Under the pieces are notes generated by a model that did no database searches, was not told where the DNA came from, and saw only the letters and a list, made by a program, of their open reading frames with translations. A stretch of 64,000 bases of DNA from Hirudinaria manillensis (Eukaryota; Annelida; Clitellata; Hirudinida; Hirudinidae): NCBI GenBank assembly GCA_034509925.1, contig CM067527.1:5142501-5206500 (forward strand), read 5' to 3'. The stretch's first letter is position 1, and each line of letters opens with the position of its first letter. Below, one piece after another: positions 1 through 51,284 of the stretch. A program made the position numbers and the translations under genes.

Positions 1-3000
1 CTACAGCTCCTGTTCCGGAAGTAACAACTGTTGTCGAGGTGAATCTCAATATATGCGAGTATCTTTCGAATCATGCTTAATTCATAATTGTTCCGTCAGG
101 TCTCGACTGCCGAAGCTACGACGGAAGCGGCTGAAGTGACGACTACACCGGTCGAGGAAGTTGTCGTAACCGAACCTCCCGTGGCGGTCGAGGTTACAAC
201 AGAGGTGAATTGTTGATTTTGATCCCATGACGTTTTAGGACGCTAACACATTGTTTCAATGCTGCAGCCGGAAGCAAGCGGAGAAGTGGTGGAAGTCGTC
301 ACCGAGGAAGTGACCACGCCGGTGGTCGAGGTTCCGGTAGAAGTCACGACTCCAGTCGTAAAGGTAACTCCAGTGGTGACCAAAGAAGAAGAAGAAGTCG
401 AGACTACAGCTCCTGTTCCGGAAGTAACAACTGTTGTCGAGGTGAATCTCAATATATGCGAGTATCTTTCGAATCATGCTTAATTCATAATTGTTCCGTC
501 AGGTCTCGACTGCCGAAGCTACGACGGAAGCGGCTGAAGTGACGACTACACCGGTCGAGGAAGTTGTCGTAACCGAACCTCCCGTGGCGGTCGAGGTTAC
601 AACAGAGGTGAATTGTTGATTTTGATCCCATGACGTTTTAGGACGCTAACACATTGTTTCAATGCTGCAGCCGGAAGCAAGCGGAGAAGTGGTGGAAGTC
701 GTCACCGAGGAAGTGACCACGCCGGTCGAGGTTCCGGTAGAAGTCACGACTCCAGTCGTAAAGGTAACTCCAGTGGTGACCAAAGAAGAAGAAGAAGTCG
801 AGACTACAGCTCCTGTTCCGGAAGTAACAACTGTTGTCGAGGTGAATCTCAATATATGCGAGTATCTTTCGAATCATGCTTAATCTATAATTGTTCCGTC
901 AGGTCTCGACTGCCGAAGCTACGACGGAAGCGGCTGAAGTGACGACTACACCGGTCGAGGAAGTTGTCGTAACCGAACCTCCCGTGGCGGTCGAGGTTAC
1001 AACAGAGGTGAATTGTTGATTTTGATCCCATGACGTTTTAGGACGCTAACACATTGTTTCAATGCTGCAGCCGGAAGCAAGCGGAGAAGTGGTGGAAGTC
1101 GTCACCGAGGAAGTGACCACGCCGGTCGAGGTTCCGGTAGAAGTCACGACTCCAGTCGTAAAGGTAACTCCAGTGGTGACCAAAGAAGAAGAAGTCGAGA
1201 CTACAGCTCCTGTTCCGGAAGTAACAACTGTTGTCGAGGTGAATCTCAATATATGCGAGTATCTTTCGAATCATGCTTAATCTATAATTGTTCCGTCAGG
1301 TCTCGACTGCCGAAGCTACGACGGAAGCGGCTGAAGTGACGACTACACCGGTCGAGGAAGTTGTCGTAACCGAACCTCCCGTGGCGGTCGAGGTTACAAC
1401 AGAGGTGAATTGTTGATTTTGATCCCATGACGTTTTAGGACGCTAACACATTGTTTCAATGCTGCAGCCGGAAGCAAGCGGAGAAGTGGTGGAAGTCGTC
1501 ACCGAGGAAGTGACCACGCCGGTGGTCGAGGTTCCGGTAGAAGTCACGACTCCAGTCGTAAAGGTAACTCCAGTGGTGACCAAAGAAGAAGAAGAAGTCG
1601 AGACTACAGCTCCTGTTCCGGAAGTAACAACTGTTGTCGAGGTGAATCTCAATATATGCGAGTATCTTTCGAATCATGCTTAATCTATAATTGTTCCGTC
1701 AGGTCTCGACTGCCGAAGCTACGACGGAAGCGGCTGAAGTGACGACTACACCGGTCGAGGAAGTTGTCGTAACCGAACCTCCCGTGGCGGTCGAGGTTAC
1801 AACAGAGGTGAATTGTTGATTTTGATCCCATGACGTTTTAGGACGCTAACACATTGTTTCAATGCTGCAGCCGGAAGCAAGCGGAGAAGTGGTGGAAGTC
1901 GTCACCGAGGAAGTGACCACGCCGGTGGTCGAGGTTCCGGTAGAAGTCACGACTCCAGTCGTAAAGGTAACTCCAGTGGTGACCAAAGAAGAAGAAGAAG
2001 TCGAGACTACAGCTCCTGTTCCGGAAGTAACAACTGTTGTCGAGGTGAATCTCAATATATGCGAGTATCTTTCGAATCATGCTTAATTCATAATTGTTCC
2101 GTCAGGTCTCGACTGCCGAAGCTACGACGGAAGCGGCTGAAGTGACGACTACACCGGTCGAGGAAGTTGTCGTAACCGAACCTCCCGTGGCGGTCGAGGT
2201 TACAACAGAGGTGAATTGTTGATTTTGATCCCATGACGTTTTAGGACGCTAACACATTGTTTCAATGCTGCAGCCGGAAGCAAGCGGAGAAGTGGTGGAA
2301 GTCGTCACCGAGGAAGTGACCACGCCGGTGGTCGAGGTTCCGGTAGAAGTCACGACTCCAGTCGTAAAGGTAACTCCAGTGGTGACCAAAGAAGAAGAAG
2401 AAGTCGAGACTACAGCTCCTGTTCCGGAAGTAACAACTGTTGTCGAGGTGAATCTCAATATATGCGAGTATCTTTCGAATCATGCTTAATTCATAATTGT
2501 TCCGTCAGGTCTCGACTGCCGAAGCTACGACGGAAGCGGCTGAAGTGACGACTACACCGGTCGAGGAAGTTGTCGTAACCGAACCTCCCGTGGCGGTCGA
2601 GGTTACAACAGAGGTGAATTGTTGATTTTGATCCCATGACGTTTTAGGACGCTAACACATTGTTTCAATGCTGCAGCCGGAAGCAAGCGGAGAAGTGGTG
2701 GAAGTCGTCACCGAGGAAGTGACCACGCCGGTGGTCGAGGTTCCGGTAGAAGTCACGACTCCAGTCGTAAAGGTAACTCCAGTGGTGACCAAAGAAGAAG
2801 AAGAAGTCGAGACTACAGCTCCTGTTCCGGAAGTAACAACTGTTGTCGAGGTGAATCTCAATATATGCGAGTATCTTTCGAATCATGCTTAATCTATAAT
2901 TGTTCCGTCAGGTCTCGACTGCCGAAGCTACGACGGAAGCGGCTGAAGTGACGACTACACCGGTCGAGGAAGTTGTCGTAACCGAACCTCCCGTGGCGGT

Positions 3001-6000
3001 CGAGGTTACAACAGAGGTGAATTGTTGATTTTGATCCCATGACGTTTTAGGACGCTAACACATTGTTTCAATGCTGCAGCCGGAAGCAAGCGGAGAAGTG
3101 GTGGAAGTCGTCACCGAGGAAGTGACCACGCCGGTCGAGGTTCCGGTAGAAGTCACGACTCCAGTCGTAAAGGTAACTCCAGTGGTGACCAAAGAAGAAG
3201 AAGTCGAGACTACAGCTCCTGTTCCGGAAGTAACAACTGTTGTCGAGGTGAATCTCAATATATGCGAGTATCTTTCGAATCATGCTTAATCTATAATTGT
3301 TCCGTCAGGTCTCGACTGCCGAAGCTACGACGGAAGCGGCTGAAGTGACGACTACACCGGTCGAGGAAGTTGTCGTAACCGAACCTCCCGTGGCGGTCGA
3401 GGTTACAACAGAGGTGAATTGTTGATTTTGATCCCATGACGTTTTAGGACGCTAACACATTGTTTCAATGCTGCAGCCGGAAGCAAGCGGAGAAGTGGTG
3501 GAAGTCGTCACCGAGGAAGTGACCACGCCGGTCGAGGTTCCGGTAGAAGTCACGACTCCAGTCGTAAAGGTAACTCCAGTGGTGACCAAAGAAGAAGAAG
3601 AAGTCGAGACTACAGCTCCTGTTCCGGAAGTAACAACTGTTGTCGAGGTGAATCTCAATATATGCGAGTATCTTTCGAATCATGCTTAATCTATAATTGT
3701 TCCGTCAGGTCTCGACTGCCGAAGCTACGACGGAAGCGGCTGAAGTGACGACTACACCGGTCGAGGAAGTTGTCGTAACCGAACCTCCCGTGGCGGTCGA
3801 GGTTACAACAGAGGTGAATTGTTGATTTTGATCCCATGACGTTTTAGGACGCTAACACATTGTTTCAATGCTGCAGCCGGAAGCAAGCGGAGAAGTGGTG
3901 GAAGTCGTCACCGAGGAAGTGACCACGCCGGTCGAGGTTCCGGTAGAAGTCACGACTCCAGTCGTAAAGGTAACTCCAGTGGTGACCAAAGAAGAAGAAG
4001 AAGTCGAGACTACAGCTCCTGTTCCGGAAGTAACAACTGTTGTCGAGGTGAATCTCAATATATGCGAGTATCTTTCGAATCATGCTTAATTCATAATTGT
4101 TCCGTCAGGTCTCGACTGCCGAAGCTACGACGGAAGCGGCTGAAGTGACGACTACACCGGTCGAGGAAGTTGTCGTAACCGAACCTCCCGTGGCGGTCGA
4201 GGTTACAACAGAGGTGAATTGTTGATTTTGATCCCATGACGTTTTAGGACGCTAACACATTGTTTCAATGCTGCAGCCGGAAGCAAGCGGAGAAGTGGTG
4301 GAAGTCGTCACCGAGGAAGTGACCACGCCGGTGGTCGAGGTTCCGGTAGAAGTCACGACTCCAGTCGTAAAGGTAACTCCAGTGGTGACCAAAGAAGAAG
4401 AAGAAGTCGAGACTACAGCTCCTGTTCCGGAAGTAACAACTGTTGTCGAGGTGAATCTCAATATATGCGAGTATCTTTCGAATCATGCTTAATCTATAAT
4501 TGTTCCGTCAGGTCTCGACTGCCGAAGCTACGACGGAAGCGGCTGAAGTGACGACTACACCGGTCGAGGAAGTTGTCGTAACCGAACCTCCCGTGGCGGT
4601 CGAGGTTACAACAGAGGTGAATTGTTGATTTTGATCCCATGACGTTTTAGGACGCTAACACATTGTTTCAATGCTGCAGCCGGAAGCAAGCGGAGAAGTG
4701 GTGGAAGTCGTCACCGAGGAAGTGACCACGCCGGTCGAGGTTCCGGTAGAAGTCACGACTCCAGTCGTAAAGGTAACTCCAGTGGTGACCAAAGAAGAAG
4801 AAGTCGAGACTACAGCTCCTGTTCCGGAAGTAACAACTGTTGTCGAGGTGAATCTCAATATATGCGAGTATCTTTCGAATCATGCTTAATCTATAATTGT
4901 TCCGTCAGGTCTCGACTGCCGAAGCTACGACGGAAGCGGCTGAAGTGACGACTACACCGGTCGAGGAAGTTGTCGTAACCGAACCTCCCGTGGCGGTCGA
5001 GGTTACAACAGAGGTGAATTGTTGATTTTGATCCCATGACGTTTTAGGACGCTAACACATTGTTTCAATGCTGCAGCCGGAAGCAAGCGGAGAAGTGGTG
5101 GAAGTCGTCACCGAGGAAGTGACCACGCCGGGTCGAGGTTCCGGTAGAAGTCACGACTCCAGTCGTAAAGGTAACTCCAGTGGTGACCAAAGAAGAAGAA
5201 GAAGTCGAGACTACAGCTCCTGTTCCGGAAGTAACAACTGTTGTCGAGGTGAATCTCAATATATGCGAGTATCTTTCGAATCATGCTTAATTCATAATTG
5301 TTCCGTCAGGTCTCGACTGCCGAAGCTACGACGGAAGCGGCTGAAGTGACGACTACACCGGTCGAGGAAGTTGTCGTAACCGAACCTCCCGTGGCGGTCG
5401 AGGTTACAACAGAGGTGAATTGTTGATTTTGATCCCATGACGTTTTAGGACGCTAACACATTGTTTCAATGCTGCAGCCGGAAGCAAGCGGAGAAGTGGT
5501 GGAAGTCGTCACCGAGGAAGTGACCACGCCGGTGGTCGAGGTTCCGGTAGAAGTCACGACTCCAGTCGTAAAGGTAACTCCAGTGGTGACCAAAGAAGAA
5601 GAAGTCGAGACTACAGCTCCTGTTCCGGAAGTAACAACTGTTGTCGAGGTGAATCTCAATATATGCGAGTATCTTTCGAATCATGCTTAATCTATAATTG
5701 TTCCGTCAGGTCTCGACTGCCGAAGCTACGACGGAAGCGGCTGAAGTGACGACTACACCGGTCGAGGAAGTTGTCGTAACCGAACCTCCCGTGGCGGTCG
5801 AGGTTACAACAGAGGTGAATTGTTGATTTTGATCCCATGACGTTTTAGGACGCTAACACATTGTTTCAATGCTGCAGCCGGAAGCAAGCGGAGAAGTGGT
5901 GGAAGTCGTCACCGAGGAAGTGACAACGCCGGTGGTCGAGGTTCCGGTAGAAGTCACGACTCCAGTCGTAAAGGTAACTCCAGTGGTGACCAAAGAAGAA

Positions 6001-9000
6001 GAAGAAGTCGAGACTACAGCTCCTGTTCCGGAAGTAACAACTGTTGTCGAGGTGAATCTCAATATATGCGAGTATCTTTCGAATCATGCTTAATTCATAA
6101 TTGTTCCGTCAGGTCTCGACTGCCGAAGCTACGACGGAAGCGGCTGAAGTGACGACTACACCGGTCGAGGAAGTTGTCGTAACCGAACCTCCCGTGGCGG
6201 TCGAGGTTACAACAGAGGTGAATTGTTGATTTTGATCCCATGACGTTTTAGGACGCTAACACATTGTTTCAATGCTGCAGCCGGAAGCAAGCGGAGAAGT
6301 GGTGGAAGTCGTCACCGAGGAAGTGACCACGCCGGGTCGAGGTTCCGGTAGAAGTCACGACTCCAGTCGTAAAGGTAACTCCAGTGGTGACCAAAGAAGA
6401 AGAAGTCGAGACTACAGCTCCTGTTCCGGAAGTAACAACTGTTGTCGAGGTGAATCTCAATATATGCGAGTATCTTTCGAATCATGCTTAATCTATAATT
6501 GTTCCGTCAGGTCTCGACTGCCGAAGCTACGACGGAAGCGGCTGAAGTGACGACTACACCGGTCGAGGAAGTTGTCGTAACCGAACCTCCCGTGGCGGTC
6601 GAGGTTACAACAGAGGTGAATTGTTGATTTTGATCCCATGACGTTTTAGGACGCTAACACATTGTTTCAATGCTGCAGCCGGAAGCAAGCGGAGAAGTGG
6701 TGGAAGTCGTCACCGAGGAAGTGACCACGCCGGTCGAGGTTCCGGTAGAAGTCACGACTCCAGTCGTAAAGGTAACTCCAGTGGTGACCAAAGAAGAAGA
6801 AGAAGTCGAGACTACAGCTCCTGTTCCGGAAGTAACAACTGTTGTCGAGGTGAATCTCAATATATGCGAGTATCTTTCGAATCATGCTTAATTCATAATT
6901 GTTCCGTCAGGTCTCGACTGCCGAAGCTACGACGGAAGCGGCTGAAGTGACGACTACACCGGTCGAGGAAGTTGTCGTAACCGAACCTCCCGTGGCGGTC
7001 GAGGTTACAACAGAGGTGAATTGTTGATTTTGATCCCATGACGTTTTAGGACGCTAACACATTGTTTCAATGCTGCAGCCGGAAGCAAGCGGAGAAGTGG
7101 TGGAAGTCGTCACCGAGGAAGTGACCACGCCGGTGGTCGAGGTTCCGGTAGAAGTCACGACTCCAGTCGTAAAGGTAACTCCAGTGGTGACCAAAGAAGA
7201 AGAAGAAGTCGAGACTACAGCTCCTGTTCCGGAAGTAACAACTGTTGTCGAGGTGAATCTCAATATATGCGAGTATCTTTCGAATCATGCTTAATCTATA
7301 ATTGTTCCGTCAGGTCTCGACTGCCGAAGCTACGACGGAAGCGGCTGAAGTGACGACTACACCGGTCGAGGAAGTTGTCGTAACCGAACCTCCCGTGGCG
7401 GTCGAGGTTACAACAGAGGTGAATTGTTGATTTTGATCCCATGACGTTTTAGGACGCTAACACATTGTTTCAATGCTGCAGCCGGAAGCAAGCGGAGAAG
7501 TGGTGGAAGTCGTCACCGAGGAAGTGACCACGCCGGTGGTCGAGGTTCCGGTAGAAGTCACGACTCCAGTCGTAAAGGTAACTCCAGTGGTGACCAAAGA
7601 AGAAGAAGTCGAGACTACAGCTCCTGTTCCGGAAGTAACAACTGTTGTCGAGGTGAATCTCAATATATGCGAGTATCTTTCGAATCATGCTTAATTCATA
7701 ATTGTTCCGTCAGGTCTCGACTGCCGAAGCTACGACGGAAGCGGCTGAAGTGACGACTACACCGGTCGAGGAAGTTGTCGTAACCGAACCTCCCGTGGCG
7801 GTCGAGGTTACAACAGAGGTGAATTGTTGATTTTGATCCCATGACGTTTTAGGACGCTAACACATTGTTTCAATGCTGCAGCCGGAAGCAAGCGGAGAAG
7901 TGGTGGAAGTCGTCACCGAGGAAGTGACCACGCCGGTCGAGGTTCCGGTAGAAGTCACGACTCCAGTCGTAAAGGTAACTCCAGTGGTGACCAAAGAAGA
8001 AGAAGTCGAGACTACAGCTCCTGTTCCGGAAGTAACAACTGTTGTCGAGGTGAATCTCAATATATGCGAGTATCTTTCGAATCATGCTTAATCTATAATT
8101 GTTCCGTCAGGTCTCGACTGCCGAAGCTACGACGGAAGCGGCTGAAGTGACGACTACACCGGTCGAGGAAGTTGTCGTAACCGAACCTCCCGTGGCGGTC
8201 GAGGTTACAACAGAGGTGAATTGTTGATTTTGATCCCATGACGTTTTAGGACGCTAACACATTGTTTCAATGCTGCAGCCGGAAGCAAGCGGAGAAGTGG
8301 TGGAAGTCGTCACCGAGGAAGTGACCACGCCGGTGGTCGAGGTTCCGGTAGAAGTCACGACTCCAGTCGTAAAGGTAACTCCAGTGGTGACCAAAGAAGA
8401 AGAAGAAGTCGAGACTACAGCTCCTGTTCCGGAAGTAACAACTGTTGTCGAGGTGAATCTCAATATATGCGAGTATCTTTCGAATCATGCTTAATCTATA
8501 ATTGTTCCGTCAGGTCTCGACTGCCGAAGCTACGACGGAAGCGGCTGAAGTGACGACTACACCGGTCGAGGAAGTTGTCGTAACCGAACCTCCCGTGGCG
8601 GTCGAGGTTACAACAGAGGTGAATTGTTGATTTTGATCCCATGACGTTTTAGGACGCTAACACATTGTTTCAATGCTGCAGCCGGAAGCAAGCGGAGAAG
8701 TGGTGGAAGTCGTCACCGAGGAAGTGACCACGCCGGTGGTCGAGGTTCCGGTAGAAGTCACGACTCCAGTCGTAAAGGTAACTCCAGTGGTGACCAAAGA
8801 AGAAGAAGAAGTCGAGACTACAGCTCCTGTTCCGGAAGTAACAACTGTTGTCGAGGTGAATCTCAATATATGCGAGTATCTTTCGAATCATGCTTAATTC
8901 ATAATTGTTCCGTCAGGTCTCGACTGCCGAAGCTACGACGGAAGCGGCTGAAGTGACGACTACACCGGTCGAGGAAGTTGTCGTAACCGAACCTCCCGTG

Positions 9001-12000
9001 GCGGTCGAGGTTACAACAGAGGTGAATTGTTGATTTTGATCCCATGACGTTTTAGGACGCTAACACATTGTTTCAATGCTGCAGCCGGAAGCAAGCGGAG
9101 AAGTGGTGGAAGTCGTCACCGAGGAAGTGACCACGCCGGTGGTCGAGGTTCCGGTAGAAGTCACGACTCCAGTCGTAAAGGTAACTCCAGTGGTGACCAA
9201 AGAAGAAGAAGAAGTCGAGACTACAGCTCCTGTTCCGGAAGTAACAACTGTTGTCGAGGTGAATCTCAATATATGCGAGTATCTTTCGAATCATGCTTAA
9301 TTCATAATTGTTCCGTCAGGTCTCGACTGCCGAAGCTACGACGGAAGCGGCTGAAGTGACGACTACACCGGTCGAGGAAGTTGTCGTAACCGAACCTCCC
9401 GTGGCGGTCGAGGTTACAACAGAGGTGAATTGTTGATTTTGATCCCATGACGTTTTAGGACGCTAACACATTGTTTCAATGCTGCAGCCGGAAGCAAGCG
9501 GAGAAGTGGTGGAAGTCGTCACCGAGGAAGTGACCACGCCGGGTCGAGGTTCCGGTAGAAGTCACGACTCCAGTCGTAAAGGTAACTCCAGTGGTGACCA
9601 AAGAAGAAGAAGAAGTCGAGACTACAGCTCCTGTTCCGGAAGTAACAACTGTTGTCGAGGTGAATCTCAATATATGCGAGTATCTTTCGAATCATGCTTA
9701 ATTCATAATTGTTCCGTCAGGTCTCGACTGCCGAAGCTACGACGGAAGCGGCTGAAGTGACGACTACACCGGTCGAGGAAGTTGTCGTAACCGAACCTCC
9801 CGTGGCGGTCGAGGTTACAACAGAGGTGAATTGTTGATTTTGATCCCATGACGTTTTAGGACGCTAACACATTGTTTCAATGCTGCAGCCGGAAGCAAGC
9901 GGAGAAGTGGTGGAAGTCGTCACCGAGGAAGTGACCACGCCGGTCGAGGTTCCGGTAGAAGTCACGACTCCAGTCGTAAAGGTAACTCCAGTGGTGACCA
10001 AAGAAGAAGAAGAAGTCGAGACTACAGCTCCTGTTCCGGAAGTAACAACTGTTGTCGAGGTGAATCTCAATATATGCGAGTATCTTTCGAATCATGCTTA
10101 ATCTATAATTGTTCCGTCAGGTCTCGACTGCCGAAGCTACGACGGAAGCGGCTGAAGTGACGACTACACCGGTCGAGGAAGTTGTCGTAACCGAACCTCC
10201 CGTGGCGGTCGAGGTTACAACAGAGGTGAATTGTTGATTTTGATCCCATGACGTTTTAGGACGCTAACACATTGTTTCAATGCTGCAGCCGGAAGCAAGC
10301 GGAGAAGTGGTGGAAGTCGTCACCGAGGAAGTGACCACGCCGGTCGAGGTTCCGGTAGAAGTCACGACTCCAGTCGTAAAGGTAACTCCAGTGGTGACCA
10401 AAGAAGAAGAAGTCGAGACTACAGCTCCTGTTCCGGAAGTAACAACAGTTGTCGAGGTGAATCTCAATATATGCGAGTATCTTTCGAATCATGCTTAATC
10501 TATAATTGTTCCGTCAGGTCTCGACTGCCGAAGCTACGACGGAAGCGGCTGAAGTGACGACTACACCGGTCGAGGAAGTTGTCGTAACCGAACCTCCCGT
10601 GGCGGTCGAGGTTACAACAGAGGTGAATTGTTGATTTTGATCCCATGACGTTTTAGGACGCTAACACATTGTTTCAATGCTGCAGCCGGAAGCAAGCGGA
10701 GAAGTGGTGGAAGTCGTCACCGAGGAAGTGACCACGCCGGTGGTCGAGGTTCCGGTAGAAGTCACGACTCCAGTCGTAAAGGTAACTCCAGTGGTGACCA
10801 AAGAAGAAGAAGAAGTCGAGACTACAGCTCCTGTTCCGGAAGTAACAACTGTTGTCGAGGTGAATCTCAATATATGCGAGTATCTTTCGAATCATGCTTA
10901 ATTCATAATTGTTCCGTCAGGTCTCGACTGCCGAAGCTACGACGGAAGCGGCTGAAGTGACGACTACACCGGTCGAGGAAGTTGTCGTAACCGAACCTCC
11001 CGTGGCGGTCGAGGTTACAACAGAGGTGAATTGTTGATTTTGATCCCATGACGTTTTAGGACGCTAACACATTGTTTCAATGCTGCAGCCGGAAGCAAGC
11101 GGAGAAGTGGTGGAAGTCGTCACCGAGGAAGTGACCACGCCGGTCGAGGTTCCGGTAGAAGTCACGACTCCAGTCGTAAAGGTAACTCCAGTGGTGACCA
11201 AAGAAGAAGAAGAAGTCGAGACTACAGCTCCTGTTCCGGAAGTAACAACTGTTGTCGAGGTGAATCTCAATATATGCGAGTATCTTTCGAATCATGCTTA
11301 ATTCATAATTGTTCCGTCAGGTCTCGACTGCCGAAGCTACGACGGAAGCGGCTGAAGTGACGACTACACCGGTCGAGGAAGTTGTCGTAACCGAACCTCC
11401 CGTGGCGGTCGAGGTTACAACAGAGGTGAATTGTTGATTTTGATCCCATGACGTTTTAGGACGCTAACACATTGTTTCAATGCTGCAGCCGGAAGCAAGC
11501 GGAGAAGTGGTGGAAGTCGTCACCGAGGAAGTGACCACGCCGGTGGTCGAGGTTCCGGTAGAAGTCACGACTCCAGTCGTAAAGGTAACTCCAGTGGTGA
11601 CCAAAGAAGAAGAAGAAGTCGAGACTACAGCTCCTGTTCCGGAAGTAACAACTGTTGTCGAGGTGAATCTCAATATATGCGAGTATCTTTCGAATCATGC
11701 TTAATCTATAATTGTTCCGTCAGGTCTCGACTGCCGAAGCTACGACGGAAGCGGCTGAAGTGACGACTACACCGGTCGAGGAAGTTGTCGTAACCGAACC
11801 TCCCGTGGCGGTCGAGGTTACAACAGAGGTGAATTGTTGATTTTGATCCCATGACGTTTTAGGACGCTAACACATTGTTTCAATGCTGCAGCCGGAAGCA
11901 AGCGGAGAAGTGGTGGAAGTCGTCACCGAGGAAGTGACCACGCCGGTCGAGGTTCCGGTAGAAGTCACGACTCCAGTCGTAAAGGTAACTCCAGTGGTGA

Positions 12001-27000: not shown

Positions 27001-30000
27001 GAGGAAGTTGTCGTAACCGAACCTCCCGTGGCGGTCGAGGTTACAACAGAGGTGAATTGTTGATTTTGATCCCATGACGTTTTAGGACGCTAACACATTG
27101 TTTCAATGCTGCAGCCGGAAGCAAGCGGAGAAGTGGTGGAAGTCGTCACCGAGGAAGTGACAACGCCGGTCGAGGTTCCGGTAGAAGTCACGACTCCAGT
27201 CGTAAAGGTAACTCCAGTGGTGACCAAAGAAGAAGAAGAAGTCGAGACTACAGCTCCTGTTCCGGAAGTAACAACTGTTGTCGAGGTGAATCTCAATATA
27301 TGCGAGTATCTTTCGAATCATGCTTAATCTATAATTGTTCCGTCAGGTCTCGACTGCCGAAGCTACGACGGAAGCGGCTGAAGTGACGACTACACCGGTC
27401 GAGGAAGTTGTCGTAACCGAACCTCCCGTGGCGGTCGAGGTTACAACAGAGGTGAATTGTTGATTTTGATCCCATGACGTTTTAGGACGCTAACACATTG
27501 TTTCAATGCTGCAGCCGGAAGCAAGCGGAGAAGTGGTGGAAGTCGTCACCGAGGAAGTGACCACGCCGGTCGAGGTTCCGGTAGAAGTCACGACTCCAGT
27601 CGTAAAGGTAACTCCAGTGGTGACCAAAGAAGAAGAAGAAGTCGAGACTACAGCTCCTGTTCCGGAAGTAACAACTGTTGTCGAGGTGAATCTCAATATA
27701 TGCGAGTATCTTTCGAATCATGCTTAATCTATAATTGTTCCGTCAGGTCTCGACTGCCGAAGCTACGACGGAAGCGGCTGAAGTGACGACTACACCGGTC
27801 GAGGAAGTTGTCGTAACCGAACCTCCCGTGGCGGTCGAGGTTACAACAGAGGTGAATTGTTGATTTTGATCCCATGACGTTTTAGGACGCTAACACATTG
27901 TTTCAATGCTGCAGCCGGAAGCAAGCGGAGAAGTGGTGGAAGTCGTCACCGAGGAAGTGACCACGCCGGTCGAGGTTCCGGTAGAAGTCACGACTCCAGT
28001 CGTAAAGGTAACTCCAGTGGTGACCAAAGAAGAAGAAGAAGTCGAGACTACAGCTCCTGTTCCGGAAGTAACAACTGTTGTCGAGGTGAATCTCAATATA
28101 TGCGAGTATCTTTCGAATCATGCTTAATCTATAATTGTTCCGTCAGGTCTCGACTGCCGAAGCTACGACGGAAGCGGCTGAAGTGACGACTACACCGGTC
28201 GAGGAAGTTGTCGTAACCGAACCTCCCGTGGCGGTCGAGGTTACAACAGAGGTGAATTGTTGATTTTGATCCCATGACGTTTTAGGACGCTAACACATTG
28301 TTTCAATGCTGCAGCCGGAAGCAAGCGGAGAAGTGGTGGAAGTCGTCACCGAGGAAGTGACCACGCCGGTGGTCGAGGTTCCGGTAGAAGTCACGACTCC
28401 AGTCGTAAAGGTAACTCCAGTGGTGACCAAAGAAGAAGAAGAAGTCGAGACTACAGCTCCTGTTCCGGAAGTAACAACTGTTGTCGAGGTGAATCTCAAT
28501 ATATGCGAGTATCTTTCGAATCATGCTTAATCTATAATTGTTCCGTCAGGTCTCGACTGCCGAAGCTACGACGGAAGCGGCTGAAGTGACGACTACACCG
28601 GTCGAGGAAGTTGTCGTAACCGAACCTCCCGTGGCGGTCGAGGTTACAACAGAGGTGAATTGTTGATTTTGATCCCATGACGTTTTAGGACGCTAACACA
28701 TTGTTTCAATGCTGCAGCCGGAAGCAAGCGGAGAAGTGGTGGAAGTCGTCACCGAGGAAGTGACCACGCCGGTCGAGGTTCCGGTAGAAGTCACGACTCC
28801 AGTCGTAAAGGTAACTCCAGTGGTGACCAAAGAAGAAGAAGTCGAGACTACAGCTCCTGTTCCGGAAGTAACAACTGTTGTCGAGGTGAATCTCAATATA
28901 TGCGAGTATCTTTCGAATCATGCTTAATCTATAATTGTTCCGTCAGGTCTCGACTGCCGAAGCTACGACGGAAGCGGCTGAAGTGACGACTACACCGGTC
29001 GAGGAAGTTGTCGTAACCGAACCTCCCGTGGCGGTCGAGGTTACAACAGAGGTGAATTGTTGATTTTGATCCCATGACGTTTTAGGACGCTAACACATTG
29101 TTTCAATGCTGCAGCCGGAAGCAAGCGGAGAAGTGGTGGAAGTCGTCACCGAGGAAGTGACCACGCCGGTGGTCGAGGTTCCGGTAGAAGTCACGACTCC
29201 AGTCGTAAAGGTAACTCCAGTGGTGACCAAAGAAGAAGAAGAAGTCGAGACTACAGCTCCTGTTCCGGAAGTAACAACTGTTGTCGAGGTGAATCTCAAT
29301 ATATGCGAGTATCTTTCGAATCATGCTTAATCTATAATTGTTCCGTCAGGTCTCGACTGCCGAAGCTACGACGGAAGCGGCTGAAGTGACGACTACACCG
29401 GTCGAGGAAGTTGTCGTAACCGAACCTCCCGTGGCGGTCGAGGTTACAACAGAGGTGAATTGTTGATTTTGATCCCATGACGTTTTAGGACGCTAACACA
29501 TTGTTTCAATGCTGCAGCCGGAAGCAAGCGGAGAAGTGGTGGAAGTCGTCACCGAGGAAGTGACCACGCCGGTCGAGGTTCCGGTAGAAGTCACGACTCC
29601 AGTCGTAAAGGTAACTCCAGTGGTGACCAAAGAAGAAGAAGAAGTCGAGACTACAGCTCCTGTTCCGGAAGTAACAACTGTTGTCGAGGTGAATCTCAAT
29701 ATATGCGAGTATCTTTCGAATCATGCTTAATCTATAATTGTTCCGTCAGGTCTCGACTGCCGAAGCTACGACGGAAGCGGCTGAAGTGACGACTACACCG
29801 GTCGAGGAAGTTGTCGTAACCGAACCTCCCGTGGCGGTCGAGGTTACAACAGAGGTGAATTGTTGATTTTGATCCCATGACGTTTTAGGACGCTAACACA
29901 TTGTTTCAATGCTGCAGCCGGAAGCAAGCGGAGAAGTGGTGGAAGTCGTCACCGAGGAAGTGACCACGCCGGTGGTCGAGGTTCCGGTAGAAGTCACGAC

Positions 30001-33000
30001 TCCAGTCGTAAAGGTAACTCCAGTGGTGACCAAAGAAGAAGAAGTCGAGACTACAGCTCCTGTTCCGGAAGTAACAACTGTTGTCGAGGTGAATCTCAAT
30101 ATATGCGAGTATCTTTCGAATCATGCTTAATCTATAATTGTTCCGTCAGGTCTCGACTGCCGAAGCTACGACGGAAGCGGCTGAAGTGACGACTACACCG
30201 GTCGAGGAAGTTGTCGTAACCGAACCTCCCGTGGCGGTCGAGGTTACAACAGAGGTGAATTGTTGATTTTGATCCCATGACGTTTTAGGACGCTAACACA
30301 TTGTTTCAATGCTGCAGCCGGAAGCAAGCGGAGAAGTGGTGGAAGTCGTCACCGAGGAAGTGACAACGCCGGTGGTCGAGGTTCCGGTAGAAGTCACGAC
30401 TCCAGTCGTAAAGGTAACTCCAGTGGTGACCAAAGAAGAAGAAGTCGAGACTACAGCTCCTGTTCCGGAAGTAACAACTGTTGTCGAGGTGAATCTCAAT
30501 ATATGCGAGTATCTTTCGAATCATGCTTAATTCATAATTGTTCCGTCAGGTCTCGACTGCCGAAGCTACGACGGAAGCGGCTGAAGTGACGACTACACCG
30601 GTCGAGGAAGTTGTCGTAACCGAACCTCCCGTGGCGGTCGAGGTTACAACAGAGGTGAATTGTTGATTTTGATCCCATGACGTTTTAGGACGCTAACACA
30701 TTGTTTCAATGCTGCAGCCGGAAGCAAGCGGAGAAGTGGTGGAAGTCGTCACCGAGGAAGTGACCACGCCGGTGGTCGAGGTTCCGGTAGAAGTCACGAC
30801 TCCAGTCGTAAAGGTAACTCCAGTGGTGACCAAAGAAGAAGAAGAAGTCGAGACTACAGCTCCTGTTCCGGAAGTAACAACTGTTGTCGAGGTGAATCTC
30901 AATATATGCGAGTATCTTTCGAATCATGCTTAATCTATAATTGTTCCGTCAGGTCTCGACTGCCGAAGCTACGACGGAAGCGGCTGAAGTGACGACTACA
31001 CCGGTCGAGGAAGTTGTCGTAACCGAACCTCCCGTGGCGGTCGAGGTTACAACAGAGGTGAATTGTTGATTTTGATCCCATGACGTTTTAGGACGCTAAC
31101 ACATTGTTTCAATGCTGCAGCCGGAAGCAAGCGGAGAAGTGGTGGAAGTCGTCACCGAGGAAGTGACCACGCCGGTGGTCGAGGTTCCGGTAGAAGTCAC
31201 GACTCCAGTCGTAAAGGTAACTCCAGTGGTGACCAAAGAAGAAGAAGAAGTCGAGACTACAGCTCCTGTTCCGGAAGTAACAACTGTTGTCGAGGTGAAT
31301 CTCAATATATGCGAGTATCTTTCGAATCATGCTTAATCTATAATTGTTCCGTCAGGTCTCGACTGCCGAAGCTACGACGGAAGCGGCTGAAGTGACGACT
31401 ACACCGGTCGAGGAAGTTGTCGTAACCGAACCTCCCGTGGCGGTCGAGGTTACAACAGAGGTGAATTGTTGATTTTGATCCCATGACGTTTTAGGACGCT
31501 AACACATTGTTTCAATGCTGCAGCCGGAAGCAAGCGGAGAAGTGGTGGAAGTCGTCACCGAGGAAGTGACCACGCCGGTGGTCGAGGTTCCGGTAGAAGT
31601 CACGACTCCAGTCGTAAAGGTAACTCCAGTGGTGACCAAAGAAGAAGAAGTCGAGACTACAGCTCCTGTTCCGGAAGTAACAACAGTTGTCGAGGTGAAT
31701 CTCAATATATGCGAGTATCTTTCGAATCATGCTTAATTCATAATTGTTCCGTCAGGTCTCGACTGCCGAAGCTACGACGGAAGCGGCTGAAGTGACGACT
31801 ACACCGGTCGAGGAAGTTGTCGTAACCGAACCTCCCGTGGCGGTCGAGGTTACAACAGAGGTGAATTGTTGATTTTGATCCCATGACGTTTTAGGACGCT
31901 AACACATTGTTTCAATGCTGCAGCCGGAAGCAAGCGGAGAAGTGGTGGAAGTCGTCACCGAGGAAGTGACAACGCCGGTCGAGGTTCCGGTAGAAGTCAC
32001 GACTCCAGTCGTAAAGGTAACTCCAGTGGTGACCAAAGAAGAAGAAGAAGTCGAGACTACAGCTCCTGTTCCGGAAGTAACAACTGTTGTCGAGGTGAAT
32101 CTCAATATATGCGAGTATCTTTCGAATCATGCTTAATCTATAATTGTTCCGTCAGGTCTCGACTGCCGAAGCTACGACGGAAGCGGCTGAAGTGACGACT
32201 ACACCGGTCGAGGAAGTTGTCGTAACCGAACCTCCCGTGGCGGTCGAGGTTACAACAGAGGTGAATTGTTGATTTTGATCCCATGACGTTTTAGGACGCT
32301 AACACATTGTTTCAATGCTGCAGCCGGAAGCAAGCGGAGAAGTGGTGGAAGTCGTCACCGAGGAAGTGACAACGCCGGTCGAGGTTCCGGTAGAAGTCAC
32401 GACTCCAGTCGTAAAGGTAACTCCAGTGGTGACCAAAGAAGAAGAAGAAGTCGAGACTACAGCTCCTGTTCCGGAAGTAACAACTGTTGTCGAGGTGAAT
32501 CTCAATATATGCGAGTATCTTTCGAATCATGCTTAATCTATAATTGTTCCGTCAGGTCTCGACTGCCGAAGCTACGACGGAAGCGGCTGAAGTGACGACT
32601 ACACCGGTCGAGGAAGTTGTCGTAACCGAACCTCCCGTGGCGGTCGAGGTTACACCAGAGGTGAATTGTTGATTTTGATCCCATGACGTTTTAGGACGCT
32701 AAAACATTGTTTCAATGCTGCAGCCGGAAGCAAGCGGAGAAGTGGTGGAAGTCGTCACCGAGGAAGTGACCACGCCGGTCGAGGTTCCGGTAGAAGTCAC
32801 GACTCCAGTCGTAAAGGTAACTCCAGTGGTGACCAAAGAAGAAGAAGAAGTCGAGACTACAGCTCCTGTTCCGGAAGTAACAACTGTTGTCGAGGTGAAT
32901 CTCAATATATGCGAGTATCTTTCGAATCATGCTTAATCTATAATTGTTCCGTCAGGTCTCGACTGCCGAAGCTACGACGGAAGCGGCTGAAGTGACGACT

Positions 33001-36000
33001 ACACCGGTCGAGGAAGTTGTCGTAACCGAACCTCCCGTGGCGGTCGAGGTTACACCAGAGGTGAATTGTTGATTTTGATCCCATGACGTTTTAGGACGCT
33101 AAAACATTGTTTCAATGCTGCAGCCGGAAGCAAGCGGATATTTGGTGGAAGTCGTCACCGCGGAAGTGACCACGCCGGTGGTCGAGGTTCCGGTAGAAGT
33201 CACGACTCCAGTCGTAAAGGTAACTCCAGTGGTGACCAAAGAAGAAGAAGAAGTCGAGACTACAGCTCCTGTTCCGGAAGTAACAACTGTTGTCGAGGTG
33301 AATCTCAATATATGCGAGTATCTTTCGAATCATGCTTAATCTATAATTGTTCCGTCAGGTCTCGACTGCCGAAGCTACGACGGAAGCGGCTGAAGTGACG
33401 ACTACACCGGTCGAGGAAGTTGTCGTAACCGAACCTCCCGTGGCGGTCGAGGTTACAACAGAGGTGAATTGTTGATTTTGATCCCATGACGTTTTAGGAC
33501 GCTAACACATTGTTTCAATGCTGCAGCCGGAAGCAAGCGGAGAAGTGGTGGAAGTCGTCACCGAGGAAGTGACCACGCCGGTCGAGGTTCCGGTAGAAGT
33601 CACGACTCCAGTCGTAAAGGTAACTCCAGTGGTGACCAAAGAAGAAGAAGAAGTCGAGACTACAGCTCCTGTTCCGGAAGTAACAACTGTTGTCGAGGTG
33701 AATCTCAATATATGCGAGTATCTTTCGAATCATGCTTAATCTATAATTGTTCCGTCAGGTCTCGACTGCCGAAGCTACGACGGAAGCGGCTGAAGTGACG
33801 ACTACACCGGTCGAGGAAGTTGTCGTAACCGAACCTCCCGTGGCGGTCGAGGTTACACCAGAGGTGAATTGTTGATTTTGATCCCATGACGTTTTAGATC
33901 GCTAACACATTGTTTCACTGCTTCAGCCGGAAGCAGTCGGAGAAGTGACTGAAGTCGTCACCGAGGATGTGACCACGCCGGTCGAGGTTCCGGTAGAAGT
34001 CACGACTCCAGTCGTAAAGGTAACTCCAGTGGTGACCAAAGAAGAAGAAGAAGTCGAGACTACAGCTCCTGTTCCGGAAGTAACAACTGTTGTCGAGGTG
34101 AATCTCAATATATGCGAGTATCTTTCGAATCATGCTTAATCTATAATTGTTCCGTCAGGTCTCGACTGCCGAAGCTACGACGGAAGCGGCTGAAGTGACG
34201 ACTACACCGGTCGAGGAAGTTGTCGTAACCGAACCTCCCGTGGCGGTCGAGGTTACAACAGAGGTGAATTGTTGATTTTGATCCCATGACGTTTTAGGAC
34301 GCTAACACATTGTTTCAATGCTGCAGCCGGAAGCAAGCGGAGAAGTGGTGGAAGTCGTCACCGAGGAAGTGACAACGCCGGTCGAGGTTCCGGTAGAAGT
34401 CACGACTCCAGTCGTAAAGGTAACTCCAGTGGTGACCAAAGAAGAAGAAGAAGTCGAGACTACAGCTCCTGTTCCGGAAGTAACAACTGTTGTCGAGGTG
34501 AATCTCAATATATGCGAGTATCTTTCGAATCATGCTTAATCTATAATTGTTCCGTCAGGTCTCGACTGCCGAAGCTACGACGGAAGCGGCTGAAGTGACG
34601 ACTACACCGGTCGAGGAAGTTGTCGTAACCGAACCTCCCGTGGCGGTCGAGGTTACACCAGAGGTGAATTGTTGATTTTGATCCCATGACGTTTTAGATC
34701 GCTAACACATTGTTTCACTGCTTCAGCCGGAAGCAGTCGGAGAAGTGACTGAAGTCGTCACCGAGGATGTGACCACGCCGGTCGAGGTTCCGGTAGAAGT
34801 CACGACTCCAGTCGTAAAGGTAACTCCAGTGGTGACCAAAGAAGAAGAAGAAGTCGAGACTACAGCTCCTGTTCCGGAAGTAACAACTGTTGTCGAGGTG
34901 AATCTCAATATATGCGAGTATCTTTCGAATCATGCTTAATCTATAATTGTTCCGTCAGGTCTCGACTGCCGAAGCTACGACGGAAGCGGCTGAAGTGACG
35001 ACTACACCGGTCGAGGAAGTTGTCGTAACCGAACCTCCCGTGGCGGTCGAGGTTACACCAGAGGTGAATTGTTGATTTTGATCCCATGACGTTTTAGATC
35101 GCTAACACATTGTTTCACTGCTTCAGCCGGAAGCAGTCGGAGAAGTGACTGAAGTCGTCACCGAGGATGTGACCACGCCGGTCGAGGTTCCGGTAGAAGT
35201 CACGACTCCAGTCGTAAAGGTAACTCCAGTGGTGACCAAAGAAGAAGAAGAAGTCGAGACTACAGCTCCTGTTCCGGAAGTAACAACTGTTGTCGAGGTG
35301 AATCTCAATATATGCGAGTATCTTTCGAATCATGCTTAATCTATAATTGTTCCGTCAGGTCTCGACTGCCGAAGCTACGACGGAAGCGGCTGAAGTGACG
35401 ACTACACCGGTCGAGGAAGTTGTCGTAACCGAATCTCCCGTGGCGGTCGAGGTTACACCAGAGGTGAATTGTTGATTTTGATCCCATGACGTTTTAGGAC
35501 GCTAACACATTGTTTCAATGCTGCAGCCGGAAGCAAGCGGAGAAGTGTTGGAAGTCGTCACCGAGGAATTGACAACGCCGGTGGTCGAGGTTCCGGTAGA
35601 AGTCACGACTCCAGTCGTAAAGGTAACTCCAGTGGTGACCAAAGAAGAAGAAGTCGAGACTACAGCTCCTGGTCCGGAAGTAACAACAGTTGTCGAGGTG
35701 AATCTCAATATATGCGAGTATCTTTCGAATCATGCTTAATTTATAATTGTTCCGTCAGGTCTCGACTGCCGAAGCTACGACGGAAGCGGCTGAAGTGACG
35801 ACTACACCGGTAGAGAAATTTGTCGTAACCGAACCTCCCGTGGCGGTCGTCGTGGTTACAACAGAGGTGAATTGTTGATTTTGATCCCATGACTTTTTAG
35901 ATCGCTAACGCATTGTTTCAATTCTTCAGTCGGAAGCAGTCGGAGAAGTGACTGAAGTCGTCACCGAGGATGTGACCACACCGGTGGTCGAGGTTCCGGT

Positions 36001-38443
36001 AGAAGAAACGACTCCAGTCGTAAAGGTAACTCCAGTGGTGACCAAAGAAGAAGTCGAGACTACAGCTCCTGTTCCGGAAGTAACAACAGTTGTCGAAGTG
36101 AATCTCAATATATGCGAGTGTCTTTCGAATCATGCTTAATTTATAATTGTTCCGTCAGGTCTGGACTGCCGAAGCTACGACGGAAGCGGCTGAAGTGACG
36201 ACTACAACGGTCGAGAAAGAGGATGTTGTTACCGAACCTCCTGCGGCGGTCGTCGAAGTCACGGCAGAGGTGAATTGCCGAGTTTGATTTCATTATTTTA
36301 TTTACGCTTGCATGCCTCTTTCACTGGGGTTTGAGTCAAAGAAAGAAAATTGAAACCAATTAATTAATTGCGCCGTTGTTGGGGTTTGCTGTCTCTACTA
36401 CTGTCGTATTGGTAATTCCAGATGTGAGCGCTTAACAAATTTTGATAACCCTATTTTTCATCTCATTCAGGTTTCGACTTCCTCATCTTCCACTGAACCA
36501 ACTGTATTAAGGAGCAGTACGCCCACATCTTCATATGCTAATAAAACGTTTATTCCCGAAATTTCCAGAGATTGCTTCGTTTTGGATCCTAAGGTTTACA
36601 TTCTTGAATTTTCTTTCTTTTTTGGATATAAATTTTTTTGTTAACTTGGCTTTTATGTTTTGCCGTGTTTTATTTATCTTGTCTTTTTTTTTATAATTTT
36701 ACTTGTGTTATTCAGGTTATGGTTGTAGAATCTGAAAGAAATCTTATTTCTGACGGAGATAAATTCCCATTCGGTACTCTGGTTCTGACACAAGACGAAC
36801 AGATTCTTTATTTGAAACTATCCGATTCTTTTGTGGTTATTCCTGTTAGTGTGAAATTCTTAAATTTTCTGTTACTGATTACTACAATTTAACAATTATT
36901 TGATAGTACGAGAGCCACAGAATATTTCCAGGCAAAAAGGAAATTAAAGTAATTTTTGAACAACTTTTTTGAACCTGTCATATGCAAAATATTATTTGTT
37001 TTCTTACATAAGTTATTAATCTTTTAATTTTTTTCCAGATTCCGACCACAGCAAGTCCTGAAAAAGTTGGTCCATATAGCATTTTGACTTATTTGAATTA
37101 TTTCCGATTACACTATAATTAAAAGCGGTGCCATTACTATACGTATTTGACCCAATTCCAGTTTGATAAACTTTACGGACACAAAAATTAAGTGGTTTAT
37201 TTTGAATAAAGTCCTAAATGCTACTAACGAATTTACCAAATTTATAGAAAAAGAAGCTTTTTTAGACAATTTAATGAAATTGTGAAATATAAAAATTACA
37301 TAAATCAGTCAGAAATGTTCAATCCATTAAAAGCTATCTTTATCCAAATAATAATTATAGGAAAGTCAATAACACATTTTGTATATTTTCTAATTAATTA
37401 ATTCTATATTTTGATAAATCCAGCAAAGGTCCCAAAATCTTTCAACTAGTTTTTTCCATCCCTTATTAAAAACATTTTTCGATTTCGAAATATGTCATGA
37501 AGAATACTAGGGGTGGTAAGACATGTTCCACTGTCCTTATCAGCGTAGTGCAAAAACCAATTGTTACATTGATTAATAATGTTATTAGTTGGGTTTATTG
37601 AATTCAATTTTATTTCAGCGTCGACTTCATATTTATGCCGCAAATCATCCGCAAGACGGGAACATGGGTGGACTGTCCGGAGCAGATTATATATGCTACA
37701 AACAAGCTAAACAAGCAAATCTGGGTGGCACCTACAGATCTTTCCTGTCCTTCATAACCCAAGATCTGTTTTCCGTCGTCAACTTCGATCATATGAACGT
37801 TCCTATTTACAATGGAGAGGTTAAATTTAAATTAAATGTATTAAAATAATGCGATTAATGTTATACAATTTATTAATTGTATATATTGGATAAAATCTAA
37901 TTCATCTATTAATCAGTGCATCATTATTAATTTCGTGATTACGAAGCAATTAATATTATTATTTAACAAGTTATAAATGAATTGTTTCGTAACGAGTTAA
38001 ATAATATCTTGGAATAGGGAGAATTGTTGGTAACATCATGGCTGGATCTATTCGATGGCGGAAATGGTAATCTGGAGCCTTGGGCCAAAATTTTATCCTT
38101 CGACGGACGTGATGTTTTAACAGACCCTTCCTGGTGAGTTATTTATAAAGCTCATTAGCAAATGTTCAAACTAAACATACTTATAATTTCAACCAAAGAC
38201 TGTGCATAAATTCATTTAATTTACGTTTATAGGCCGATTAAAAGCGCCTGGCATGGATCAGACAGATTTGGAATAAGACAAGATACAGAAATGTGTCGAG
38301 GCTGGAACAGCAACCATCGCATTTCATATGGTATATCCACACCACTTGAGATGCACCAGTTGGCCGGTCAAGAGAAACAGTCTTGTGATAGAGCTCTCAT
38401 TTTGCTTTGTGTTCAAATTTCGTCAGTTTCTTCAACACAATGA
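1..38443 (+). CDS. Mp: Giant multiplexin-like (collagen XV/XVIII family) gene, 3' part: exon-repeat array, trimerization domain and endostatin
   Basis: Multi-exon gene entering from the left edge; the N-terminus is not in the window. From 5' to 3' it has a 38-nt tail of one A exon, then 90 full A exons and 91 B exons in a tandem array (to 36269), followed by unique exons 36471-36593, 36716-36844, 37039-37065, 37619-37819, 38018-38133 and 38233-38443 (stop TGA 38441-38443). All junctions are GT-AG. Phase is 0 throughout except the last junction (phase 2, inside a Trp codon). The unique exons give a Ser/Thr-rich linker, the multiplexin trimerization domain (pattern FPFGTLVLTQDEQILYLKL) and a full endostatin domain with its four cysteines. 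Multiplexins are basement-membrane collagens, so a secreted matrix protein is expected. No Gly-X-Y collagen triplets occur anywhere in the visible part; a triple helix could lie upstream. Family identity rests on the C-terminus and is strong. That the array belongs to the same transcript follows from continuous phase-0 splice sites and is inferred. Confidence 0.88.
268..670 (+). repeat. Mp: Reference cassette: exon A, intron 1, exon B, intron 2
   Basis: The first complete unit. Exon A 268-441 (58 codons) starts after ctgcag with CCG GAA GCA and ends GTC GAG before GTGAAT. Intron 1 is 442-502 (61 bp), ending ttccgtcag. Exon B 503-607 (35 codons) starts GTC TCG ACT and ends ACA ACA GAG before GTGAAT. 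Intron 2 is 608-670 (63 bp) and carries a textbook branch-point sequence, gctaac, about 28 bp before its acceptor. Both donors share the same GAG/GTGAAT context. The in-frame ATG just before exon A (259) lies inside the intron and is not a start. Both exons are phase 0-0, so each can be skipped without a frameshift. Confidence 0.9.
5077..5248 (+). other. Frameshifted A exon (unit 13)
   Basis: Reads CCGGGTCGAG where other copies read CCGGTGGTCGAG or CCGGTCGAG, so the exon is 172 nt rather than 174 or 171. If included, translation shifts frame and meets TGA early in the following B exon. The sequence is intermediate between the two common length alleles, suggesting consensus error. Alternatives are a true decayed exon that is skipped. 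Confidence 0.85.
6281..6449 (+). other. Frameshifted A exon (unit 16)
   Basis: Same CCGGGTCGAG lesion as unit 13 but on the three-Glu background, giving 169 nt (not divisible by three). The lesion on a different background argues either for independent errors at one ambiguous site or for spread of a defective allele. Confidence 0.85.
9488..9659 (+). other. Frameshifted A exon (unit 24)
   Basis: Carries CCGGGTCGAG and is 172 nt, on the four-Glu background with the ttcata form of intron 1. Its inclusion would put a stop in the next B exon. Confidence 0.85.
14301..14472 (+). other. Frameshifted A exon (unit 36)
   Basis: Carries CCGGGTCGAG and is 172 nt, here with the tctata form of intron 1. 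This is the last of the four frameshifted copies; none is seen between here and the 3' end of the array. Confidence 0.85.
32651..36269 (+). repeat. Mp: Divergent 3' edge of the cassette array (units 82-90)
   Basis: From about 32651 the copies accumulate changes absent from the core. Exon B ends ACA CCA GAG (for example 32653, 33053, 33853, 34653). Intron 2 changes to gctaaaac before units 82-83. Unit 83 has a Tyr-Leu and an Ala substitution in exon A. Units 85, 87, 88 and 90 share an alternative acceptor region (ttcag) and a GCA GTC GGA start. Units 89 and 90 change further, and their B exons grow to 36 (35759-35866) and 37 codons (36159-36269). Unit 90 has only two Glu codons (A exon 35930-36097, 56 codons). 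All remain in frame with intact GT-AG sites. Increasing divergence towards an array boundary is the known outcome of unequal exchange. Confidence 0.9.
36471..36593 (+). CDS. Mp: Multiplexin linker exon (Ser/Thr-rich) after the array
   Basis: A 41-codon exon from ttcag/GTTTCGACT to CCT AAG/gtttac. Its first codons (Val-Ser-Thr) match the start of the array B exon (GTCTCGACT), suggesting a common origin. The rest is Ser/Thr/Pro-rich and ends with a single cysteine in RDCFVLDPK. It is phase 0 on both sides. A 201-bp intron separates it from the last repeat exon. Confidence 0.8.
36716..36844 (+). CDS. Mp: Multiplexin NC1 trimerization domain exon
   Basis: A 43-codon exon from ttcag/GTTATGGTT to ATT CCT/gttagt. 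It fits the collagen XV/XVIII trimerization domain, a compact beta-sheet fold that assembles three chains. The pattern of hydrophobic residues, P-x-GTLV, DEQ-x-LYLKL and F-x-VIP matches the family's P-x-G-x-L, E-E-LYVRV and F-x-K-x-Q-L. The family match is from memory and no alignment was run. It is phase 0 at both ends. Confidence 0.8.
37039..37065 (+). CDS. Mp: 27-nt micro-exon between trimerization and endostatin domains
   Basis: A nine-codon exon (IPTTASPEK) between ttttccag and gttggt. It was chosen because it joins the phase-0 trimerization exon to the phase-0 endostatin exon. Reading on without splicing meets TAA after 27 codons. This segment is the hinge, which in the family is protease-sensitive. 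The donor AAA/gttggt is weak, so the exact end is the least certain junction of the gene. The following intron (37066-37618) holds nothing recognisable. Confidence 0.6.
37619..38443 (+). CDS. Mp: Endostatin domain (three exons)
   Basis: Exons 37619-37819, 38018-38133 and 38233-38443 encode the C-terminal endostatin (C-type-lectin-like) domain. Diagnostic segments are LHIYAANHPQDGNMGG, GADYICYKQA, GGTYRSFLS and QDLFSVV, then ILSFDGRDVL, then WHGSD and CRGW, and a final SCDRALILLCVQ. The four family cysteines are present (YIC, EMC, QSC, LLC). Of the N-terminal zinc ligands known in mammalian endostatin, only the His of the LH motif is evident; the first two His are absent. The protein ends SSVSSTQ. 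In mammals endostatin is released by proteolysis and modulates angiogenesis; in invertebrates the domain acts in nervous system and basement membrane. Confidence 0.92.
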
Positions 38444-42838: not shown

Positions 42839-42840
42839 AT

Positions 42841-51230: not shown

Positions 51231-51284
51231 GTGGTCGGTGACAGTAATTTCTTGAACGAAAACCAATGTCTTAAAGTATTTCAA

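Follow-up and report, generated by a model that had tools for sequence, protein, structure and literature searches.

A pair of short exons rich in Val, Thr, Glu and Pro is repeated together with its introns about 189 times in the leech Hirudinaria manillensis; the copies have been kept alike, the edges of the array have diverged, and the array runs in frame into exons that encode endostatin. The best reading of this sequence is that the product would be a giant secreted proteoglycan-like protein, derived from a multiplexin and tethered by its endostatin. It seems fairly probable that a single gene of H. manillensis encodes a giant acidic protein, probably disordered, that is secreted and held by the C-terminal endostatin. 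A more specific version, in which the only multiplexin of this hirudinid has had its collagen helix replaced by about 189 two-exon cassettes and encodes, in about 388 exons, a secreted, endostatin-tethered proteoglycan some 17,700 residues long that would carry as many as about 180 glycosaminoglycan chains, is offered tentatively, as a possibility falling somewhat short of probable. By our own sum the full gene would comprise about 388 exons and about 17,760 codons, counting the array, three edge exons, six C-terminal exons and two putative N-terminal exons. Coordinates are collected in Table 1, in which positions without a prefix are those of the window, the whole stretch of 64,000 nucleotides that was analysed.

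Table 1. Coordinates of the array, its flanking exons and nearby features
Feature	Position	Strand	Remarks
C4 zinc finger ORF of receptor	C2:5087128-5087424	-	PF00105 above cut-off
Edge exon B'	C2:5102694-5102798		before array core
Edge exon A1'	C2:5103064-5103162		before array core
Edge exon A2'	C2:5103224-5103265		before array core
Array, 3' half	1-36269	+	91 whole B exons (105-111 bp), 90 whole A exons (168-180 bp)
Cut A exon	1-38	+	at left edge of window
Last complete unit	35698-36097	+	intron, 108-bp B exon, intron, last A exon
Last A exon	35930-36097	+	reads SEAVGEVTEVV, without Ser-Gly
Last B exon of array	36159-36269	+	111 bp
Decayed copy of A1' (split 5'-edge A exon)	36362-36429	+	in the intron between array and C1
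Exon C1	36471-36593	+	phase 0, first exon past the array, starts VST
Exon C2	36716-36844	+	candidate multiplexin trimerization domain, PFGTLV...DE..LYLKL
Exon C3	37039-37065	+	9-codon hinge, weak donor GTTGGT, inferred from phase
Exon C4	37619-37819	+	endostatin domain
Exon C5	38018-38133	+	endostatin domain
Exon C6	38233-38443	+	endostatin domain; stop TGA 38441-38443
First AATAAA after stop	39151-39156	+	candidate poly(A) signal
Candidate small antistasin-like protease inhibitor gene	~45336-45442 and ~46350-46440	-

Build and coding character of the array

In the window alone, Tandem Repeats Finder found a single array (1-36252, period 400, 90.5 copies, 98% matches), in agreement with the about 91 units of about 400 bp counted in an earlier, sequence-only reading and with the whole and cut exons in Table 1. 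When 100 kb upstream and 10 kb downstream were added to the window, the array extended over about 75.5 kb (C2:5103266-5178769), with its 5' start about 39 kb before the window (window position about -39234). Pattern-based dissection of the whole array gave 189 exons of the shorter type (B) and 188 of the longer type (A), together 377; the at least 180 tiny exons proposed earlier were thus borne out, yet the array is about twice as long as had been noted. All 187 steps between the 188 anchors measured 397-409 bp. Intron 1 was 61 bp in 186 of 189 copies and intron 2 was 63 bp in all 188. B exons were 105 bp in 187 of 189 cases, the last two being 108 and 111 bp, and all 189 were multiples of three. 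The A exons were 168, 171, 174, 177 or 180 bp in 181 of 188 cases and 169 or 172 bp in the other seven. The suggested cassette of two phase-0 exons with introns of 61 and 63 bp therefore holds except in these seven A exons, which are not multiples of three. The patterns used in the dissection themselves demand GT and CAG, so that the splice dinucleotides are not an independent result, whereas the regular order of donor, acceptor and donor is. The exact acceptor pattern was present in 188 of 189 units, the remaining one being one base off, and in 185 of 188 copies intron 2 had CTAAC, which we take to be the branch-point consensus, placed so that its second A is at -22. In a search with the unit peptide, all listed matches lay inside the array (150 of 385 candidates scored).

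With all exons included, the array exons amount to 52,126 bases or 17,375 codons; the more than 8,000 residues estimated earlier are right for the window. Joined B and in-frame A exons read through 16,977 residues with zero stops, against 1468 and 194 stops in the other two forward frames, and none of the 188 B exons counted contained a stop; reading the joined exons in reverse likewise gave two open frames. Retention of an intron brings in an in-frame stop in every case (189/189 and 188/188), and thus the array is readable only if it is spliced. An unspliced reading was rejected, the longest stop-free stretch being 105 codons on the plus strand and 87 on the minus strand. Units acting as separate tandem genes were rejected as well, because the 16,977 in-frame residues include no Met and hence no start codon, and because the 201-bp gap after the array has neither AATAAA nor ATTAAA.

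The array protein is composed of about 31% Val, 23% Glu, 22% Thr and 11% Pro, with 2% Lys and no Cys among the in-frame residues, and its calculated pI is 4.05. Nearly all A exons open with PEASGE, and Glu-Ala-Ser-Gly was found in 184 of 188 (177 of the 181 in-frame exons and all seven frameshifted ones). D/E-X-S-G is the glycosaminoglycan-attachment consensus that PMC7852327 cites for human collagen XV, and the E-X-S-G of the A exons fits it, suggesting candidate glycosaminoglycan sites. Neither the 5' edge copy nor the last A exons have Ser-Gly, which indicates that Ser-Gly is a feature of the core and may only have hitch-hiked.

Spliced as predicted, the product would be a stalk of up to about 17,000 residues with a pI of about 4, one Glu-X-Ser-Gly per repeat and about 22% Thr. 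Glycosaminoglycan chains and O-glycans could make of it a hydrated brush in or beside the basement membrane, and the stalk would take over the extending role that the collagen helix has in collagens XV and XVIII. As every intron comes with splice sites of its own and the in-frame array exons are of phase 0, units could presumably be added, lost or skipped with the frame kept. If this is true, the length of the product could be changed in steps of about 93 residues by unequal exchange.

The endostatin end and the upstream side

The last B exon ends in phase 0 and C1-C6 continue in frame, as had been claimed for the array and the endostatin C-terminus, and the positions first given for the end of the array, the start of C1 and the end of C6 (36269, 36471 and 38443) were correct. 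The VST at the start of C1 is common to nearly all B exons. The DNA similarity of C1 and exon B was matched by one of 1000 shuffles, and the protein similarity by 146 of 1000, which is not significant. In the intron between the array and C1 lies a decayed copy of A1' (score 40 against 29 for the best of 1000 shuffles). GTGAGC comes next, just as it does after the 5' copy; the decayed copy contains an in-frame TAA and has no AG behind it, which indicates that it is not an exon.

Exons C4-C6 encode endostatin (PF06482, E 2.4e-50; collagen XVIII, 1bnl, E 1.4e-42), and their four Cys align with those of turtle and fly proteins. With the endostatin Pfam model no second endostatin locus was found elsewhere in the genome. 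The multiplexin-type C-terminus proposed earlier is thereby confirmed for its endostatin part, while its candidate trimerization domain has a weak match: with a nine-sequence profile C2 came fourth among the real exon and 1000 shuffles (729 reported). The position and pattern of C2 are as expected of a trimerization domain before the hinge; it did not reach Pfam Collagen_trimer, and a search of PDB gave chance-level matches only. Protein searches with the C-terminus gave three matches among 2659 candidates of about 334-1064 residues and seven among 5874 of about 744-2366 residues, and these were from two turtles, one unnamed dockerin-bearing protein and seven drosophilids. No annelid protein was among the matches within these limits of length; giant models fall outside the lengths searched, so the missing annelid matches say nothing about absence.

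The sequence-only reading spoke of a multiplexin and of the collagen family, and as stated these labels found no support, as a search of both strands over 174 kb gave no collagen triple helix. There were no Gly-X-Y runs of at least five in open frames of at least 20 codons, and none of at least three with collagen-like composition (25% Pro, Lys and Glu). The 60 kb upstream of the array had no collagen triple helix; a helix spliced in from past the neighbouring genes would lie outside this scope. Multiplexin is thus a name that applies only by the endostatin end. A Drosophila TSPN query had no match in the genome at E<=1 (no positive control at that distance).

About 15 kb upstream of the array the locus is bounded by a receptor gene on the minus strand, presumably an NR4A-like nuclear receptor. 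It has the C4 zinc finger of Table 1, beyond that a ligand-binding domain below threshold, and an N-terminal ORF that reaches to about C2:5088329. In this minus-strand ORF a sub-threshold match to the collagen IV C4 domain (19.7 bits against a cut-off of 27) was not counted as collagen. With the receptor gene as its upstream bound, the array gene should start within the intervening 14 kb. There, an ATG at C2:5094668 opens MKLDQFVILSCICHLTSEKSLWNKG, which can be joined in phase to a 32-bp exon and is a possible signal peptide of the array gene, 7.4 kb from B'. A scan for V/T/E/P-rich exons in C2:5088501-5103300 returned B' alone and is non-exhaustive, since A1' as well fails to pass its pyrimidine and donor filters. 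Further upstream (C2:5060000-5088500) there are HMG-box and bZIP-like ORFs on the plus strand and a CDK9-like kinase and a WD40 protein on the minus strand; the upstream neighbours were named by eye, except WD40 and zf-C4. Microsatellites, including long tetra- and trinucleotide runs, are dense at C2:5044700-5070200, and the non-array part of the window has two short tandem repeats only.

Copy variation and alternative readings

Among the 188 units there are 60 distinct sequences. The number of sites at which a unit departs from the consensus is 0-3 for most, up to 9 for a few within the 5' third, and 8, 2, 13, 3, 13, 13, 9 and 23 for the last eight; the last complete unit, with its 23 substitutions, is the most diverged of all. 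No higher-order repeats were found, in that no series of four units occurs identically at two places, whatever the spacing. The 5' edge copy A' is related to core A, with alignment scores above those of any shuffle (114 against at most 36 for DNA, 102 against at most 67 for protein), and it is split by a 61-bp intron that core A does not have, its introns not aligning with those of the core. It has diverged from the core, yet is open and in phase. The DNA similarity of B' to core B was matched by 23 of 1000 shuffles, which is suggestive, and their proteins showed no similarity (535 of 1000 shuffles as good). An ancestral exon pair of a multiplexin-type gene may have spread by unequal exchange or gene conversion. 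The founder would have had a split A exon, with the intron lost in the core, and exchange of single units could then have spread the core form. Diverged edges are expected in such an array, as unequal crossing over predicts them.

The variation among copies gives little indication of constraint. Between A' and core A, 18 of 41 aligned codons change the amino acid, with 20 changes at codon positions 1 and 2 and 13 at position 3, a pattern suggesting mild constraint at best. Disordered repeats commonly show such mild constraint. In the core, variants occurred at 13 of 203 nonsynonymous, 7 of 76 synonymous and 9 of 116 intron sites (p 0.44 and 0.65), and in the last eight units there were 0.089, 0.092 and 0.086 variants per site, respectively. 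Rates this equal mean that copy-to-copy variation does not reveal selection on the protein. When the indel site of exon A (codons 17-20), at which variants are concentrated, was taken out, nonsynonymous variants fell below intron variants (5 of about 195 against 9 of 116, p 0.046), yet not below synonymous ones (p 0.45); this removal was post hoc and is not relied on as a sign of selection.

Read literally, with all array exons included, the frame breaks upstream of endostatin. Seven of the 188 A exons are frameshifted, four of them in the window (starting at 5077, 6281, 9488 and 14301), and all seven frameshifts are at two length-variable sites, the V/VV site accounting for six and the E run for one. 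At such sites reads of different copies would merge, so these are perhaps consensus errors. In contrast, five of the seven have an identical CCGGGTCG form and may therefore be a real variant that was spread by exchange, in which case the exons would be skipped or the product shortened. It is somewhat unlikely that the array is transcribed with a variable subset of its exons, giving far shorter proteins of many lengths. The phase of the in-frame exons would let the cell skip damaged or surplus units, the frameshifted exons would need skipping if real, and the very short introns with near-identical splice sites probably make errors of register likely. However, introns 1 and 2 have only 10 and 4 alleles, so that no class of units is distinct by its splice sites, and the confinement of the frameshifts to the two length-variable sites is what consensus errors would give.

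A wrong copy number in the assembly, collapsed or inflated, is unlikely in our view and would be compatible with the single giant gene, the array itself being real. The mitochondrial COX1 of this genome is 97% identical to that of Poecilobdella javanica and 96% to that of H. manillensis. The H. manillensis assembly is described in PMC10671345 as built from PacBio HiFi reads with a mean of 18.73 kb, with a quality score of 33.5. Such reads, at about 19 kb, are too short to settle a 75-kb stretch of units that are 98% identical; by our own arithmetic the score allows about 34 errors in 75 kb. The distinct units and the lack of any shared run of four identical units nevertheless indicate that the assembler did not duplicate blocks, and one read spans about 47 units and should show their distinctive order.

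It is improbable that the array arose when a former exon pair within an intron expanded like a satellite, that it is never part of an mRNA and that endostatin is expressed from another promoter. The nonsynonymous variants are not depleted, an amplified founder would stay open for a while without selection, the A1' copy beside C1 has decayed, and the length classes in threes are weak coding evidence, since the GTG/GTC doublet and the GAA run slip by three anyway. Against this, the older 5' edge copy A' has stayed open and in phase in spite of its divergence, and the GC of exons (0.59/0.54) differs from that of introns (0.35/0.40) as in real genes.

Known systems and neighbouring features

The aggrecan chondroitin-sulfate domain and the mucins have copy-number-variable coding repeats with regularly spaced attachment sites in one large intronless exon. 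The leech repeats, in contrast to these single-exon repeats, are split by introns. Spidroin genes have fewer, larger exons and silk-type sequence, and the spidroin protein is unrelated to the leech array protein. The likeness of the spider flagelliform and other intron-bearing spidroin genes to the leech gene, going by PMC3522626, is in the highly similar introns within one repetitive gene. In unit build the leech array resembles human LPA, in which, as described in PMC4378929, kringle IV-2 repeats of two exons and two introns lie in tandem within one gene. These repeats are 5.5 kb long, present in 1 to >40 copies and encode a kringle (PMC4378929), whereas the leech units are 0.4 kb, number about 189 and encode V/T/E/P; the LPA kringle is bonded by Cys, while the leech unit is Cys-free (none in 16,977 in-frame residues). 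Tandem in-frame two-exon units of the LPA KIV-2 type are thus present here, with 7 of 188 A exons frameshifted and a single transcript predicted.

Multiplexins (collagens XV and XVIII, Drosophila Mp and C. elegans cle-1) share with the leech gene the C-terminal endostatin/restin, the possible trimerization domain and the hinge, and also candidate glycosaminoglycan sites and, as PMC7852327 states for other invertebrates, a single gene. The leech gene differs in that no triple helix or recognisable TSPN was found in it and its middle is the 377-exon array; an isoform of Drosophila Mp lacking the central collagen domain is known (PMC7852327). With titin/connectin it would share a giant repeat-rich protein from hundreds of exons. 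It is unrelated to titin, nearly all exons of the leech model of about 388 being two repeated cassettes, and with only 2% Lys its array is not a PEVK segment. None of the matches listed from open-access literature on endostatin/multiplexin, annelids/leeches and tandem exons described this gene or a similar array, in line with the earlier judgement that no such expansion had been described. A two-exon cassette array is already known from LPA; as far as seen, novelty lies in the scale and setting and in the missing collagen helix.

If spliced as predicted, the gene would have more exons than human titin, whose 363 are called the largest number in PMC12198301, and it would be a test of the spliceosome on hundreds of near-identical introns of 61-63 bp in register. 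If true, it would also demonstrate that a matrix gene with endostatin can dispense with a collagen helix in favour of a repeat stalk. A tiny symmetric cassette homogenised with its introns is also a clear case for the growth and frame-keeping of coding arrays. Leeches are in medical use and endostatin is under study as an inhibitor of angiogenesis, so there is practical interest in the form that leech endostatin naturally takes.

Several other features were observed in the window and the genome. A LINE-type retroelement lies just downstream of the gene (39995-43698, minus strand) with a 947-codon ORF containing endonuclease and reverse transcriptase domains, next to a 285-codon ORF without a significant Pfam family; both ORFs are open, suggesting a recent insertion. 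An antistasin-family exon (PF02822, E 1.4e-7, hand-read) has a possible signal-peptide exon, MKVTVALIILLIALPMVDS, 1 kb upstream (Table 1). An exon with a STEEP1 domain at 47869-47985 (plus strand; PF25809, E 1.3e-6) scored just above the cut-off, and by eye its flanks resemble the remainder of a STEEP1/CXorf56 gene. On the minus strand, two ORFs of inward-rectifier potassium channel type stand in tandem (50082-51284 and 53433-54620); they share long identical stretches by eye and look like a recent tandem duplication; IRK domains were confirmed for the second. Elsewhere in the genome, a nuclear contig (C9:3024946-3029286) has a copy of mitochondrial DNA with 99.7% identity over a stretch of at least 2871 bp that takes in COX1; this copy is either a very recent nuclear insertion or a misassembly.
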